Virus record (IMG/VR): IMGVR_UViG_3300037010_003012
Coordinates: 1-37,722 of that record
Source: a virus
Strand: one strand, 5' to 3'
Length of the DNA: 37,722 nucleotides
Shown: piece after piece, positions 5,249 to 23,498 of the stretch
Numbering within the stretch: position 1 is the stretch's first letter
Layout of the letters: every line of letters starts with the position of its first letter
Notes under the pieces: generated by a model
What the model was told of the DNA's origin: nothing
What the model saw: only the letters and a program-made list of their open reading frames with translations
Database searches by the model: none
Position numbers and translations under genes: made by a program

Positions 5249-5882
5249 GTCTTGCAAATTGTTTCAATCCATTTTGAAGCAACAGCGTCTGGAATTTAGT
5301 AATTGAATAATCGTTATTTTGCGCATATTGCATTAAATCTACCCATTGGGGAATTTGGTCGGTGCAAAAGACTGTAAAGTCATTTTTGGGTCGATTGTGT
5401 ATAACACGATATAAACTAAGCACGTCTTCAGTAATATGATTAGCGTTTATTAATTGAATCATCGAGCACTGTTCGCTAATAACTTTATCAAAGTTAGTTA
5501 GCGCGGTTGGACCTGTAAATTCTAAAATCAAATGATTAAATGCTATTTTTTCTAATGAAGATATGTCACCATTTATTTTAATTACATAATTTCTAGTGGT
5601 GCTAGTAATTTTGCCTTGTGAATATTCAGCAACAACATTAAGAATTTGCATATTTTTATTTGGGTCTGCCAAATCAGCAAATGATAATTGAATATCTAAT
5701 TCTATTTTAACTGGAGATGCTGCCCTAACAGTGTTAATTTGACACTTTCTATCCGTTTGATTTGAAATATGTGATGCTAGAGAAATAAGGGAAATATCTG
5801 CATATGAAAATTGTGGGAAAAACTCCAAAGTAGCTCTAAAACAATATGCAACCGGCTTAACCGTACTATCAATAGGTTGCAT
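5244..5882 (-). CDS. Tail-family paralog
   Basis: 212 residues. Ends in FQTLLLQNGLKQFARR. The C-terminal domain has ANHITEDVLSLYRVI, then a PQWVDL element, then the tail, in the same order as in the neighbours at 5869 and 6497. The N-terminal 100 residues (KPVAYCFRATLEFFPQF) align by eye with those of the 5869 gene. The ATG (5882) is out of frame inside the QYA codons of the upstream paralog, giving a 14-base overlap and no Shine-Dalgarno site, so translation is probably coupled. No enzymatic motif is seen. Confidence 0.65.
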   Translation of the reverse strand: MQPIDSTVKPVAYCFRATLEFFPQFSYADISLISLASHISNQTDRKCQINTVRAASPVKIELDIQLSFADLADPNKNMQILNVVAEYSQGKITSTTRNYVIKINGDISSLEKIAFNHLILEFTGPTALTNFDKVISEQCSMIQLINANHITEDVLSLYRVIHNRPKNDFTVFCTDQIPQWVDLMQYAQNNDYSITKFQTLLLQNGLKQFARR

Positions 5883-6495
5883 ATTGTTTTAGACCATTTT
5901 TCAATAACAGTGTCTGATACGCCGGTGTTGTCATTTTTGAAAACCTTGCTGTATAAGCTAATCCTAACCATAGTGGGGTTTTTTCAATACCGTCTTTACA
6001 AAAGACCAAATTAGTATCGTTGTTTATAAACTCATACAGGCTTAGTGCACCACCAGAAATATAATGACATTTTTCAATATGGAGCGTTAATGTAAATGGA
6101 CCTATCAACTTATTGATGTTAGTTAATTTTGTTTCACTCAAAAAGAATAACGTAAAATTGGCAGTGTTAATTGGTAGCAATGTTGATATATCGCCGTCAA
6201 CTTCTGCAATGATTTCATCTTCAGAATAAGTTATTTGCAAATTATGAAGTGAAAAACACTCATGAACTTTACTGTATATTATTGACAAGTCTTTTAAATC
6301 ACAAGTTTTCAATTCCACCATCAATTGTAATCCCACTGGACTAAATGGTTCAAGTGTTTTAAGATAACATTTTCTATTCGTATTATACTCAATATTTCTC
6401 ATCATTGAATTCAATGTATGTGTATTAATGAAATTATGGTATGAGCTAAGCTTTAACAATACAAAAAGCCGGTATTTAATAGGTTTTGGTTCCAT
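5869..6495 (-). CDS. Tail-family paralog
   Basis: 208 residues from the ATG at 6495 (MEPKPIKYRLF), which falls one base after the upstream paralog's stop. An in-frame ATG at 6525 lies inside the upstream tail codons and would add ten residues (MVLSNLPNIE). I prefer 6495 because the alignment with the 5244 paralog begins there. Ends in YQTLLLKNGLKQYATY; the C-terminal domain has YISGGALSLYEFI and PLWLGL. Neither start has a good ribosome site, which suggests coupling. Function unknown. Confidence 0.62.
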   Translation of the reverse strand: MEPKPIKYRLFVLLKLSSYHNFINTHTLNSMMRNIEYNTNRKCYLKTLEPFSPVGLQLMVELKTCDLKDLSIIYSKVHECFSLHNLQITYSEDEIIAEVDGDISTLLPINTANFTLFFLSETKLTNINKLIGPFTLTLHIEKCHYISGGALSLYEFINNDTNLVFCKDGIEKTPLWLGLAYTARFSKMTTPAYQTLLLKNGLKQYATY

Positions 6496-8132: not shown

Positions 8133-8984
8133 TTAATTACTTTTAATATATTGAATGATTTTTGGAAGAACTAAATTTTCTTTGGAAATAAATTGAGGAG
8201 CTGAATTTATTTCGAACACAAACCAAGTTCCATCTTTTTCAGATTGAACTAAGTCCACACCAGCAAAATCTAGCTCAAAACAACAAGCAATTTTCTTTGC
8301 CAATATTTTAACATTTTCTGGTAATTCGACGAATTCTTGAGTTGCTCCAAGGGAAAGGTTATTTCTAAATTCTTTACTTTCCTTTTTACGCTCGCGCTTG
8401 ATAGCATATAAAAGTTCATTTTTAAAAAAGAAAATTCGATAATCACAAGAGTTAGGAATGAACTCCTGAAAGATAAATTCTTGCTTTGGATTTGCCTTTA
8501 AAAATCTAACGACGGCGGCATTAGTATCTAGCTTTGAGATGCCTTTACCTTGAGAACCATTCGTAATTTTTGCAATAATAGGAAGTTTTAATTCTTTAAC
8601 TAATTTTTCAGCATCAATATTGCTTGTATGCGAAATGATAGTTTTTGGTTGAGCGATATCATTCTGTGAAAATAAAAATGATTGAAGAGGTTTATTTTCT
8701 AAGTAAGCTGGAACACCATAGTATAAATGTGGAACACTATATTTTTTGATGTAATCTCTGATAACTGAAGCTTTAACTTGATTTTCAGTCACTGGACCCA
8801 TGAATATAAAACCAAATTTTGTTATTGGCTCTTTTGCTACGGTGAGTATTCCATTTTCAACGGCGACTTCATCCCAACTAACAAACTTACATGTATCTAA
8901 CTCAGCGGTGAGTTCAGCCTCAAAGTGATGAAAGCTGATAAACAATTTTGGAATAATCGGGTGGAACAGCGCTGCTAATTTCAT
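8133..8984 (-). CDS. RimK-like ATP-grasp ligase
   Basis: 283 residues. The ATP-grasp fold is shown by the glycine-rich loop in PIIAKITNGSQGKGISKL (about 135-152), the QEFIPNSCDYRIFF segment, and the metal-binding end FAGVDLVQ...WFVFEINSAPQF with the E-x-N pair. Family knowledge: such enzymes use ATP to join a carboxylate to an amine, for example adding Glu to a protein or peptide end (RimK) or closing rings in microviridin-type peptides. Substrate unknown. The ATG overlaps the stop of the oxygenase gene (ATGA), so the two are co-translated. Inference: part of a peptide- or protein-modification cassette with the next two genes. Confidence 0.75.
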   Translation of the reverse strand: MKLAALFHPIIPKLFISFHHFEAELTAELDTCKFVSWDEVAVENGILTVAKEPITKFGFIFMGPVTENQVKASVIRDYIKKYSVPHLYYGVPAYLENKPLQSFLFSQNDIAQPKTIISHTSNIDAEKLVKELKLPIIAKITNGSQGKGISKLDTNAAVVRFLKANPKQEFIFQEFIPNSCDYRIFFFKNELLYAIKRERKKESKEFRNNLSLGATQEFVELPENVKILAKKIACCFELDFAGVDLVQSEKDGTWFVFEINSAPQFISKENLVLPKIIQYIKSN

Positions 8985-9669: not shown

Positions 9670-11199
9670 TTATTCTTCTTCTTGCTTTTTTAATTCTTTA
9701 TTTCCTTCAATTGGAGTAATATTACCAACCGCAGGGTTAACTAAGAAGCCTGCTTGCGCTAATGTATTTCTACCAAGTAAAACATCATATTTCATATCTT
9801 CTCTTGAAGTCACATTGATTTCGACATTACGTAGAGTTTGATTATTTACCGTTAAATCAACACGTATGACTGGTCGCTCTGAAATATCATTAGCGTCAAC
9901 TTGTTTAATTTTAGATGTTCTAACCAAGTGAAATTTATAAACAGTGCCTTTAAATTTAAAACGAACCGAACTATCATCAATCTTTATATCTTCCCCATGA
10001 ATTGAACTCATTGCGGCGCCAGTATCAACACGTGCTTCAAGCGGCTCTTCATTATTGAAGTGCTTAATGATAACATGCGAAACAGTGCCAATAACACCAG
10101 CTTCTTCTGAATGAGTTGGAACTTCAACTTCATCATCAGCATCCCCATCAGGTTCTTTATCTAAGTGGGGTTTCTCAATTTCAGCCTCAGGTTCGACTTT
10201 AATGTCAACTTCAACTTTAACATCTTTTTCTTCTTCAGCTTCCACATCTTTAAGCTCGTGCTCATCCTTGTCAATCTTTTTAGCCGGAGTAGGTTTATCA
10301 GTTGGCAATTCTTTTACGTCAGTGGCTTTTAATGTTTCAATGCAATAGTTAATAATAACCGCGGCAATATCTAAATCAGGCACGACCTTTTGCATTGATT
10401 CAAAACCAGGAGAACCATTAACTTCTAGTACCACAATTTCATCATTATTAACAATGTAATCAACCGCCGCAAAATTAATACCGATTGCTTCAGCTGATTT
10501 TTGACAAACTTTAATCTCTTCAGCTGAGGCTTCATGAATTTTAAGTTCTGCTCCAAGATGAGCGTTACTTCTGAAATCGTCTTCAGGGATGGTGCGCATT
10601 ACACTAACTAATGGCTTACCATCTAATAGTAAAATTCGACCAGATTGTTTATGTGGGATAAACTCTTGTAAGATAAATTGAACTTCAGTCTTTAATAATT
10701 GTTGAACAATTGAACGCAAGCTTGCTAAACTATCCGCTCTAATAACCCCGATACCATGAGTACCATATATTGTTTTTACGATAACTGGAAACTTTTCACC
10801 AATTGCTTTTACTGCGTGCTCTAATTGATGCTCAGATGTAAACATGGTCGTGCGCGGGGTAACTATACCTGCATCATTTAGTAAGATTTGACTTTCGACT
10901 TTGTTACTAGCGTTACGTAAAGCTTTCCCATTATTAATAACCTTGACACCCATTTTTTCTAAATGGTTAACGATAGCAACTTTATATTCAAGGTCATTTT
11001 CAGATAATCGTGGAATACAAATATCAGTTCCAGTAAATTGAGTACCATCATGTGAGATGTAATCATTTCCGGCTAAAGAAATATAACACTTATCAGGGTT
11101 GATTACCTCAACCTTAAATCCAGCGGCTTTAGCTTTCAATTCAATTTCTTTTGGCGCCCAATTTTCTGGTTCTGCCGTTAAGATTATCAAAGATGTCAT
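9670..11199 (-). CDS. RimK-like ATP-grasp ligase fused to RimB/DUF785-like aspartic protease
   Basis: 509 residues. Residues 1-295: ATP-grasp domain with FPVIVKTIYGTHGIGVI (137-153), QEFIPHKQSGRI and NFAAVDYIV...VLEVNGSPGFESM (E259, N261), which is the RimK pattern. Residues about 300-365: acidic Glu/Asp/Lys/Val linker. Residues about 370-490: a retropepsin-like domain with VDTGAAMSSIH (D392), ERPVIRVDL and YDVLLGRNTLAQAGF (LLGRNTL 474-480), the signature of the RimB/ATP-dependent zinc protease (DUF785) family. In bacteria, RimK adds Glu to the end of ribosomal protein S6 and RimB trims it. Here both activities would be in one chain. Known for the family: ligation and trimming. Inferred: a phage target or S6 itself. 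Confidence 0.85.
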   Translation of the reverse strand: MTSLIILTAEPENWAPKEIELKAKAAGFKVEVINPDKCYISLAGNDYISHDGTQFTGTDICIPRLSENDLEYKVAIVNHLEKMGVKVINNGKALRNASNKVESQILLNDAGIVTPRTTMFTSEHQLEHAVKAIGEKFPVIVKTIYGTHGIGVIRADSLASLRSIVQQLLKTEVQFILQEFIPHKQSGRILLLDGKPLVSVMRTIPEDDFRSNAHLGAELKIHEASAEEIKVCQKSAEAIGINFAAVDYIVNNDEIVVLEVNGSPGFESMQKVVPDLDIAAVIINYCIETLKATDVKELPTDKPTPAKKIDKDEHELKDVEAEEEKDVKVEVDIKVEPEAEIEKPHLDKEPDGDADDEVEVPTHSEEAGVIGTVSHVIIKHFNNEEPLEARVDTGAAMSSIHGEDIKIDDSSVRFKFKGTVYKFHLVRTSKIKQVDANDISERPVIRVDLTVNNQTLRNVEINVTSREDMKYDVLLGRNTLAQAGFLVNPAVGNITPIEGNKELKKQEEE

Positions 11200-21118: not shown

Positions 21119-21910
21119 TTATTTTTCAAACTTTACCGGGTCTGCCCCAAAAAATAAAGCTTCTTTTGGATTTGTCAAAGAAGTTAAAATTGGCAGTTCT
21201 AATCGAACAATACCAGATCGTTCTACTGGACCAGTTGGTCTAAATTGAACTGGTATATTTTCCAATTCTTCTTGACGTAATTCGCGCAAAATCTTAGCTC
21301 GTTTAAAGATAGATCCACGCTTATAACGAGTTGCCAATCCATGCCAATCATATCCGGCTTCTTGCAATCTTGCTAAACGTTGTTTAGTTCCCATACCTTG
21401 TAATGACTTATGACTAAACAAAGAACTCGCGGCCATATTGATACTGTTACGATAAGCATCAAGTTCTCGCCACATAACATTTTCTGCAGCTAAATCTAAA
21501 CTTGGAATATGCCAAATACGACAGTCAAATGTAGGAACATTAACATTATGTTCCAGTTCAGTTTCAGATAGATGCTTTGCAAAAACAACCGAAGTTGTAG
21601 CAGCTAAAGTTGTCAAAATCTTGTTAACACGCCCATCAAAAATGTTTAACTCATTCCATACCAATGTAATTTCATCTGATTGGACATATGCAACTAAAGC
21701 ACTGAACTCATCAACAAGATATTTTGCAGTTTCTTCCATTGCCCAAATAAAGCCACTGTCAAAAGGCTTTATTGCTTTCCTTGTCAGTGTATGAAAAGAA
21801 CGACCATCAAGTCTGGCAATCACTGGAACACCGGCAATTAGCTTCTGTTCAAAGTGCTTCTCAAACACCTTGTGCTTGTCGCCTAGTGACATAAAATTTA
21901 AACTTGTCAT
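21119..21910 (-). CDS. tRNA-His guanylyltransferase (Thg1/TLP family)
   Basis: 263 residues. Matches: VIARLDGRSFHTLT (D35, G36, H40) and VAYVQSDEITLVW (S78, D79, E80), the two metal-binding motifs of the Thg1 palm; then an AYRNSINMAASSLFSHKSL segment like bacterial and phage Thg1-like proteins rather than the eukaryotic HINNLYN motif. Family knowledge: these enzymes add nucleotides in the 3' to 5' direction, either G-1 on tRNA-His or in tRNA 5'-end repair. No tRNA gene is seen in the window. Inference: 5' repair of host or phage tRNA. It overlaps the stop of the 62-residue gene by 1 base and is probably co-transcribed from 22123-22131. Confidence 0.9.
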   Translation of the reverse strand: MTSLNFMSLGDKHKVFEKHFEQKLIAGVPVIARLDGRSFHTLTRKAIKPFDSGFIWAMEETAKYLVDEFSALVAYVQSDEITLVWNELNIFDGRVNKILTTLAATTSVVFAKHLSETELEHNVNVPTFDCRIWHIPSLDLAAENVMWRELDAYRNSINMAASSLFSHKSLQGMGTKQRLARLQEAGYDWHGLATRYKRGSIFKRAKILRELRQEELENIPVQFRPTGPVERSGIVRLELPILTSLTNPKEALFFGADPVKFEK

Positions 21911-22376: not shown

Positions 22377-22403
22377 AAAAATGGGGAACCGAAGCTCCCC
22401 ATT
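22377..22403 (-). terminator. Rho-independent terminator
   Basis: Perfect 9-bp stem AAATGGGGA/TCCCCATTT with a short loop, followed on the minus strand by TTTTTGTCTTT. It closes the monocistronic gene at 22423-22866. Confidence 0.85.
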
Positions 22404-22422
22404 TAGCTAAATCAAAACTTAC

Positions 22423-22866
22423 TTATAGTAAGAATGTCTTAGTTGCTTGGTCAAGGTTCGATTCAGCTGGATTTACAAAATCAGCACCAATCATTCCGTC
22501 AGAGATACGACCTAACTGCAGGTTTGCCAAGCTATCTTGCGTAGCCCTTGCGCCTTTTGGACGTTTAATTTTAACGAAATTAACATGCACATAATCTAAA
22601 CCGTTAATGCCATTTGAAAAACGAGCTTGTGATAACAATTCATAAAGCGGATACTTATCAGCATGAGGACCAGTAACAACGCGTTTAATACGACCTTTGT
22701 CAATTTGATGCAGTGATTGAATATCAACATACGCCAATGAACCATCAGCGAATTCATTAACAATCGCAACTTCTTTTAATAGACCACTGTCATCTACATC
22801 AACCAAAAAGATATGTGGCAAAGAAGTTGGGGTTTTTTGGATTTTATTAGCTTTTTCAGCTGCCAT
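22423..22866 (-). CDS. Uncharacterised protein with RNA-controlled start
   Basis: 147 residues, mixed alpha/beta, no transmembrane segment. Recognisable strands: HIFLVDVDDSGLLKEVAIV, GSLAYVDIQSLHQ, YVHVNFVKIKRP; the end is Ala/Asn-rich. I do not recognise the family. The gene stands alone between a strong terminator and a 120-base structured leader that can hide its ribosome site (see 22869-22988), the arrangement used by T4 late genes that must stay silent early. This suggests a late product, possibly virion or lysis-related. Confidence 0.6.
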   Translation of the reverse strand: MAAEKANKIQKTPTSLPHIFLVDVDDSGLLKEVAIVNEFADGSLAYVDIQSLHQIDKGRIKRVVTGPHADKYPLYELLSQARFSNGINGLDYVHVNFVKIKRPKGARATQDSLANLQLGRISDGMIGADFVNPAESNLDQATKTFLL

Positions 22867-22868
22867 GC

Positions 22869-22988
22869 TTTATTCTCCTATTTGAGGGGTTCACGTATAA
22901 CGTTTTAAATAACCCTGGTTACGATAGCCGAGAGGACATCCTCTCTGACAAGAAGTAGCTTGTCTAATACTATCTATAGGAGAATAAA
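22869..22988 (-). promoter_or_regulatory. Multi-helix leader that sequesters the ribosome binding site
   Basis: A perfect 13-bp inverted repeat, TTTATTCTCCTAT (22869-22881 on +) and ATAGGAGAATAAA (22976-22988 on +), closes a region with four inner hairpins: GGGTT/AACCC around ACGT-ATA-ACGT, GGTTA/TAGCC, GAGAGG/CCTCTC with a 4-base loop, and GACAAG/CTTGTC with a 6-base loop. On the minus strand the inner-side copy carries AGGAG, the ribosome site of the gene starting at 22866, so it would be fully paired in RNA read from upstream. Possible 13-bp alternative: a remnant inverted duplication. Confidence 0.6.
22971..22978 (-). promoter_or_regulatory. Late-like promoter inside the sequestering stem
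   Basis: The minus strand reads TATAGATA, one mismatch to TATAAATA. RNA started about 6-7 bases downstream (near 22964) would lack the 5' half of the 13-bp stem (22976-22988), leaving the ribosome site free. Confidence 0.4.
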
Positions 22989-22995
22989 AGTGACT

Positions 22996-23260
22996 TTAAT
23001 ACCCGTTAAAATCAACCTCTTCTAGCAATTCAGCGAGCGCTTTTAAATTATTTGCTCAGCTGCATTCATTAATATCAATGTGGTATTTGTCTGGATTTAA
23101 ACTATCTCCTGCTTCTATGCTATAAGAAAAAGAACCAGGAAAGCCTCGCTCCAAAAACTCATTGATAAAATAAGAACATTAAGCTTTTGTTAAAAAATGA
23201 AAGCTGTCACTGACAAATCGATGCTTTAGTTCCAGCTTCAGTTTCACCGCTATAAGCCAT
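22996..23260 (-). pseudogene. Decayed small gene with one frameshift and two stops
   Basis: Starting from ATG at 23260 (overlapping the previous stop) the reading is MAYSGETEA, then after a one-base shift ELKHRFVSDSFHFLTKA, stop (23179-23181), CSYFINEFLERGFPGSFSY, SIEAGDSLNPDKYHIDIN, ECS, stop (23056-23058), ANNLKALAELLEEVDFNGY, stop at 22996. With the shift and two stops repaired it is a plausible 86-residue protein. I do not recognise it. Unlike the tail-family breaks, it carries nonsense changes, so this is true decay and not only a homopolymer artefact. Confidence 0.65.
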
Positions 23261-23498
23261 AATCTTTTATTCTTGTATTACCATCACCACCATATGGTAC
23301 ACACATACCATCCCAACCTTCAGCATTTGAGCCAGTAAATAATTCAAATTCGATATCAAATTCAGAGCTACTCATATCTAATATGGCTTCACTGACAACA
23401 GCTTGAGCTAAAGCTGTATTTTCTGCATATGTTGAATCTTCGTCAACAGCAATTACCATATCAAAATGTACCCTAGCAACTAACAATTTTTGACTCAT
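23250..23498 (-). CDS. Small uncharacterised acidic protein
   Basis: 82 residues, acidic, with ARVHFDMVIAVDEDSTY and FELFTGSNAEGWDGMCVPYGG. It begins with a beta strand and ends in a Gly/Asp loop. Ribosome site AGAGG before ATG. It is followed by the decayed gene, with overlapping stop and start. No motif recognised. Confidence 0.5.
   Translation of the reverse strand: MSQKLLVARVHFDMVIAVDEDSTYAENTALAQAVVSEAILDMSSSEFDIEFELFTGSNAEGWDGMCVPYGGDGNTRIKDYGL

Follow-up and report, generated by a model that had tools for sequence, protein, structure and literature searches.

A candidate T4 gene e-like timing switch joined to a structured leader RNA at a conserved gene of uncultured phages

The leader of a conserved 147-residue protein

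The stretch of DNA analyzed here (hereafter the window) is the 37,722-nucleotide (nt) virus record IMGVR_UViG_3300037010_003012, a genome fragment of 37.7 kb. Our subject is the leader of a minus-strand gene at 22423-22866, which was taken from the list of open reading frames (ORFs) and encodes a conserved protein of 147 amino acids (aa) and unknown function, with orthologues found by profile search. The leader holds an inverted repeat with arms on the minus strand that are complementary at 13 of 13 positions and lie 94 nt apart. The 3' arm (ATAGGAGAATAAA, 22869-22881) contains the Shine-Dalgarno (SD) motif AGGAG at 22875-22879. The 5' arm (TTTATTCTCCTAT, 22976-22988) is complementary to the SD region, covaries with it in relatives, and would be present only in RNA initiated further upstream. 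A first-pass annotation, made from the sequence alone, had claimed that the perfect 13-bp repeat pairs the AGGAG of the gene starting at 22866. The complementarity bears this out, as does the fold of the surrounding 133-nt region (22860-22992), which reaches -40.1 kcal/mol (z -4.35, with none of 200 shuffles as good). The length of the repeat is not decisive by itself, since the window contains three perfect 13-bp inverted repeats with gaps of at most 150 nt, against a mean of 0.47 (maximum 2) in 15 dinucleotide shuffles. Among 29 pairs of late box and gene from this and related contigs, anti-SD pairing close to the box is strongest in the window, with an orthologous leader (L002) in second place. 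The DNA of the element occurs only once in the record.

The octamer TATAGATA at 22971-22978 on the minus strand is very probably a T4-type late promoter box, judging by where it sits: TAAATA-type boxes occupy the same place in 48 other orthologous leaders. As a bare string, TATAGATA is found twice in the window against 1.57 occurrences expected, which is not significant, and the assignment therefore draws on position in the relatives. The box would span -13 to -6, as T4 late boxes do, with CTAAATA beginning at -12 in Aeh1 (PMC1524935). The same annotation had noticed that the box overlaps the blocking strand, and the two indeed share 3 nt. Counting 6 nt from the end of the box (PMC1524935) places the predicted late transcription start (+1) at 22965 on the minus strand, a position that falls within the outer-stem loop.

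The loop is itself predicted to be structured, with all elements on the minus strand. A hairpin termed P1 (GACAAG-CTACTT-CTTGTC, 22947-22964), supported by the fold and by covariation in relatives, would stand at the very start of the late RNA. It is followed by an extra hairpin (GAGAGGA-TG-TCCTCTC, 22930-22945), which no leader shows apart from those of this phage and of L001, a near-identical copy. Both hairpins are enclosed by a stem pairing 22922-22928 with 22970-22975 (GATAG/CTATC, spanning 22922-22975), whose 5' arm precedes the predicted +1, so that the stem would exist in read-through RNA alone. Next comes a conserved leader core (GGGUUAUUUAAAACGUUAUACGUGAACCCC, 22886-22915), in which a stem P2 (GGG/CCC) encloses a stem P4 (ACGU/ACGU) and which is recognized by two covariance models, R1 and R2. 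Directly past the gene, a strong hairpin resembling an intrinsic terminator (22379-22404, 11 pairs, TTCG loop, T-rich tail) is consistent with a short late transcript.

Covariation of the blocking arm with the Shine-Dalgarno region

Relatives were gathered by profile searches of viral contigs, one scan alone giving 63 loci, and 51 distinct orthologous leaders were readable. They belong to uncultured, mostly large phage contigs, many of them fragments. In 49 of the 51, the start codon is preceded at a distance of 50-126 nt by a TAAATA-type late box or, in the window, by TATAGATA. For these 49 leaders, the 25 nt before the box together with 3 nt of the box were paired with the leader's own SD region and with the SD regions of all other phages. 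Own pairs average -10.18 kcal/mol and permuted pairs -7.92 (standard deviation 0.31), a z of -7.2 that none of 20,000 permutations reached. Control windows further upstream, in the leader and in the coding region gave z values from -1.8 to +1.4. Permutation stratified by GC content gave p 2e-4, and non-redundant subsets of 44, 36 and 27 leaders gave z values of -7.0, -5.7 and -4.9, respectively. Because the window had been picked by the initial observation, the fair tests are those that omit it; these hold, with z -6.8 overall and -5.2 among 35 non-redundant leaders.

Paired changes in relatives were a check set beforehand, and the arm and the SD region do covary, with near-duplicates removed, with the window left out and with GC content stratified alike. 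Independent pairs of arm and SD region include TCTCTCCTTGC/GCAAGGAGAGA in L038, AGAGACTCCT/AGGAGTCTCT in L062, GATTCTCCT/AGGAGAATC in L085 and GTTTCTCC/GGAGAAAC in L055. The arm sequences of these four leaders, of L054 and L096, and of the window differ from one another, which indicates paired change rather than a shared string. Such paired changes suggest that the outer stem is maintained by selection, with strong arms in a subset of leaders only.

The predicted cost of opening the SD region differs between the two kinds of RNA. For L090, whose leader is nearly identical to that of the window, opening would require 12.9 kcal/mol in the read-through form and 3.3 in the late form. The corresponding values for T4 gene e, treated in the same way as a positive control, are 11.6 and 2.2 kcal/mol. 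Averaged over the 49 leaders, the cost is 5.2 when the RNA comes from upstream, 2.6 when it starts at the late promoter and 3.0 with the upstream part shuffled, all in calculations that ignore cotranscriptional folding and ribosomes.

As an observation apart, one orthologous leader (L007) has its late box overlapped by a divergent frame resembling a GIY-YIG homing endonuclease (MSGIIYKSKKVLPYVYLATNRITGEFYIGYREANK..., approximately 2720-2950).

The leader core, its copies ahead of terL and the phage context

P1 starts at or beside the predicted +1, six bases from the box, in most leaders. The stability of 26-nt segments peaks at 9 nt past the box (-6.07 kcal/mol, against -1.0 to -2.5 at every offset up to the box). 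An alignment of eight short forms of P1 has 32 of 32 cells paired, and three of the four pairs have changed on both sides. Stem-loops at the 5' end are known to protect RNA 5' ends, and by analogy P1 probably does the same.

The core follows the pattern GGGUU...AAAACGU-loop-ACGU...CCC, with covarying stems in 37 leaders. These fall into two types; a joint alignment of both was poor and was not used. In group A5 (21 sequences), P2 and P4 are present and two pairs of P4 have changed on both sides. Group A6 (16 sequences) has an added stem, P3, within P2; RNAalifold recovers P2, P3 and P4 unaided, both P3 and P4 show changes on both sides, and the sequence of P3 differs in nearly every member. 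Model R2, which was built from A6 only and so excludes the window, detects the core there at an E-value of 9.1e-4, and R1 finds it at 1.4e-7 with the near-identical copy L090 in its training set, both values being rough because the calibration was short. Rfam 15 has no family that reaches its gathering score in the window and none that reaches E 1 in the element, and in five relatives its sole match was sub-threshold, to an unrelated small RNA family downstream of the leader. The core models find no match in T4, 121Q, RaK2, SCTP-2, Phosso, Hallingskeid, XacN1 or RAS14. The first-pass annotation had described interior hairpins filling the loop as surplus to what the T4 case needs. The hairpins stand, but they are not surplus, as two of them belong to the late-leader RNA conserved in 37 leaders. 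Some of this interior structure thus appears to be a conserved RNA element, which is more novel than the remainder of the finding.

A second copy of the core occurs in four contigs, found by R1 in G023, G025 and G028 and by R2 in G022. All four copies (L108, 985-1019, plus strand; L109, 1651-1684, minus; L110, 1613-1646, minus; L118, 1019-1050, plus) lie between a late box and the SD ahead of the gene for the terminase large subunit (TerL), with a small ORF intervening in G023. Their P2 stems differ in sequence (UGCAGGG/CCCUGCA and GCGGG/CCCGC). The terL leader of G028 also carries a perfect 10-bp anti-SD arm (GTTCTCCTAA/TTAGGAGAAC), with opening costs of 14.5 and 2.0. No core was found at terL in the other subclades examined or in the window. 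Weak extra model matches in G012 and G013 were set aside, having no late box and SD around them. Conservation of the core beside the SD at two different late genes suggests a site of translation control or protein binding, which is the most likely role of P2 and P4.

The 147-aa protein carries a conserved basic KRP-G stretch. It matches no Pfam or PHROG family, and a sequence search of the PDB gave no identity. AlphaFold models reached a predicted local distance difference test score (pLDDT) of 61 with 6 sequences and 78.5 with 45. Foldseek found no meaningful match in the PDB (best E 1.0) and no RNA-binding fold was recognized there, and the good structural matches in BFVD are unnamed or uncharacterized phage proteins only. 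The candidates T4 gp33 and DsbA were rejected, as hhalign gave no match to either.

The window also encodes a family-B DNA polymerase, with best matches (identity about 30%) in phages that include XacN1, 121Q and RaK2, as well as a helicase, a primase, TerL and a sliding-clamp-like protein. A homologue of the late sigma factor gp55 is encoded by the complete relatives XacN1 and RAS14; the window, being a fragment, contains none. Exact TATAAATA strings occur three times in the window, all on the minus strand and all intergenic. BLAST of the region against deposited phages gave no match. Searches of the window for tRNA (by ARAGORN) and tmRNA genes found none, and the fragment nonetheless holds a gene resembling tRNA-His guanylyltransferase (21119-21910, minus strand; phrog_4717, E 1.3e-59). 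Two further minus-strand genes lie in one stretch (8133-8984 and 9670-11199), a RimK-like ATP-grasp gene (PF08443) and a gene matching the PHROG of ribosomal protein S6 glutaminyl transferase (phrog_2599). Upstream of the element, 22998-23262 (minus strand) appears to be a decayed gene in the same orientation, with the frame HRFVSDSFHFLTKA*CSYFINEFLERGFPGSFSY...INECS*ANNLKALAELLEEVDFNGY*. It has two in-frame stops, both shared with L001, and a shifted start (MAYSGETEAGTKASICQ*). Elsewhere, another start codon lies within a strong stem, where a perfect 19-bp hairpin (CTAAAACAATATGCAACC...GGTTGCATATTGTTTTAG, 5835-5893, minus strand) spans the ATG of an ORF starting at 5882.

Readings of the leader and comparison with known systems

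We consider it probable that the element is a leader that regulates a late gene under T4-type late transcription, in which a timing switch of the T4 gene e type is joined to a structured late leader. RNA reading through from upstream would include 22976-22988, which would pair with the SD and shut the gene. With the late promoter at the inner edge of the blocking arm, late RNA would start at about 22965 without that arm, leaving the SD much more accessible. The gene would then be translated mainly late, as is the T4 lysozyme gene e. The late RNA would open with P1, followed just upstream of the SD by the core of P2 and P4, with P3 added in one subclade. The gene e logic put forward at first pass is supported by the covariation of arm and SD, by the geometry of a box kept in place in 49 of 51 orthologues, and by energies nearly like those of T4 gene e.

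Several observations weigh against this reading. Only 10 of the 49 leaders gain at least 4 kcal/mol; the switch is thus strong in some of them (a strong arm in about a fifth) and weak or missing in the others, and no blocking arm is seen in L007, L008, L010, L033 and others. The sole close relative, L001, is nearly identical, leaving the window itself without independent variation. At this leader, the box of the window is a variant, TATAGATA, and not TATAAATA. The late-RNA fold also retains a weak local hairpin at the SD.

The leader might instead serve the stability or translation efficiency of late mRNA, with a 5' hairpin acting against RNase E or RppH, the core as an enhancer and the outer stem in a minor part. 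The placement of P1 at or beside the predicted +1 fits such a role, and a strong blocking arm is present in fewer leaders than are P1 and the core. We think this possible but doubtful as a full account, as it leaves unexplained an arm-SD covariation that far exceeds the controls. A stability role and a timing switch are compatible, so the proposal is mainly an addition to the gene e-like arrangement.

The core could also be a translational operator, to which a phage protein, perhaps the 147-aa product, binds at P2-P4, repressing the mRNA that encodes it and, in some phages, that of terL. The conservation of sequence and structure beside the SD would fit, as would the KRP-G stretch and the restriction of the core to two gene contexts, the 147-aa gene and terL. 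Set against this are the lack of a recognized RNA-binding fold or a Pfam or PHROG family for the protein and the confinement of the terL copies to one subclade; the operator is something we infer throughout, and we regard the proposal as rather unlikely. A combined version, to which we give similarly tentative credit, would have the core as a phage RNA operator recognized by a trans-acting factor. Its regulon would consist of two genes, that for the 147-aa protein and, in a single subclade, that for the terminase, and the operator would be accompanied by an SD-blocking stem that only read-through RNA forms. If true, timing would come from the choice of transcription start and amount from the operator.

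The outer stem may, less plausibly still, be a by-product of divergent genes, where the 5' arm is or descends from a ribosome-binding site (RBS) on the opposite strand, facing RBSs being complementary by nature. Such a history receives support from XacN1 and RAS14, where a divergent gene starts at this place and the same-placed arm is its RBS, which also counts against the gene e-like reading. On the plus strand of the window, AGGAG is followed by a GTG at 22990, which opens a frame of 11 codons. Yet among the 18 leaders pairing at -12 kcal/mol or stronger, 14, including the copy of the window leader, have no divergent ORF of at least 30 codons with an SD near the arm, and four have one. The simple form of this explanation was therefore rejected as a general one. 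The complementarity also runs past the SD core, and the flanking positions that it takes in vary in concert from phage to phage; we consider the by-product improbable. A DNA-level element, such as a cruciform, a mobile inverted-repeat insertion or an origin, is very improbable, for although the perfect inverted repeat has several nested hairpins and folds well on both strands, the record has no second copy, the arm flanks show no obvious target duplication, and 37 diverged leaders keep a single orientation and a fixed geometry of late promoter and SD.

The favored arrangement, a timing switch of the gene e type with a structured late leader, would mean that the logic of gene e recurs at another gene in uncultured phages that are diverged and mostly large, and whose sequences are numerous enough to reveal the arm and the SD changing together. 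To our knowledge, this logic has so far rested on few genes, in T4 and its close relatives. The structured late-leader RNA is new to Rfam, and in some phages it also precedes terL. The covariance models provide a tool to recognize late mRNAs in uncultured phages, and the leader offers a way into the study of a phage protein that is widely conserved but of unknown function.

Precedents for a late promoter within an SD-blocking stem are the T4 genes e, soc, 49 and I-TevI (PMC3014915, PMC2988022). In being a structured leader of a phage mRNA near the SD, the RNA described here also resembles the autogenous operators of T4 genes 32 and 43. However, gene 32 has a pseudoknot as its operator and gene 43 a hairpin about 40 nt upstream (PMC3014915), whereas the present late leader has P1 and P2-P4, belongs to other genes and has no known binding protein. 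No Rfam 15 family offers a likeness. The closest likeness is to T4 gene e, where a T4-type late box likewise sits at the 5' arm of a stem that hides the SD of read-through RNA, that arm is absent from late RNA, and the predicted cost of opening the SD is nearly identical (11.6/2.2 kcal/mol in T4 and 12.9/3.3 here). The gene differs, being one of unknown function here, and the core models find nothing in T4. While the late RNA of T4 gene e starts right before the SD, the leader described here places about 100 nt of structured RNA between the predicted +1 and the start codon, and the loop of its blocking stem measures 94 nt.
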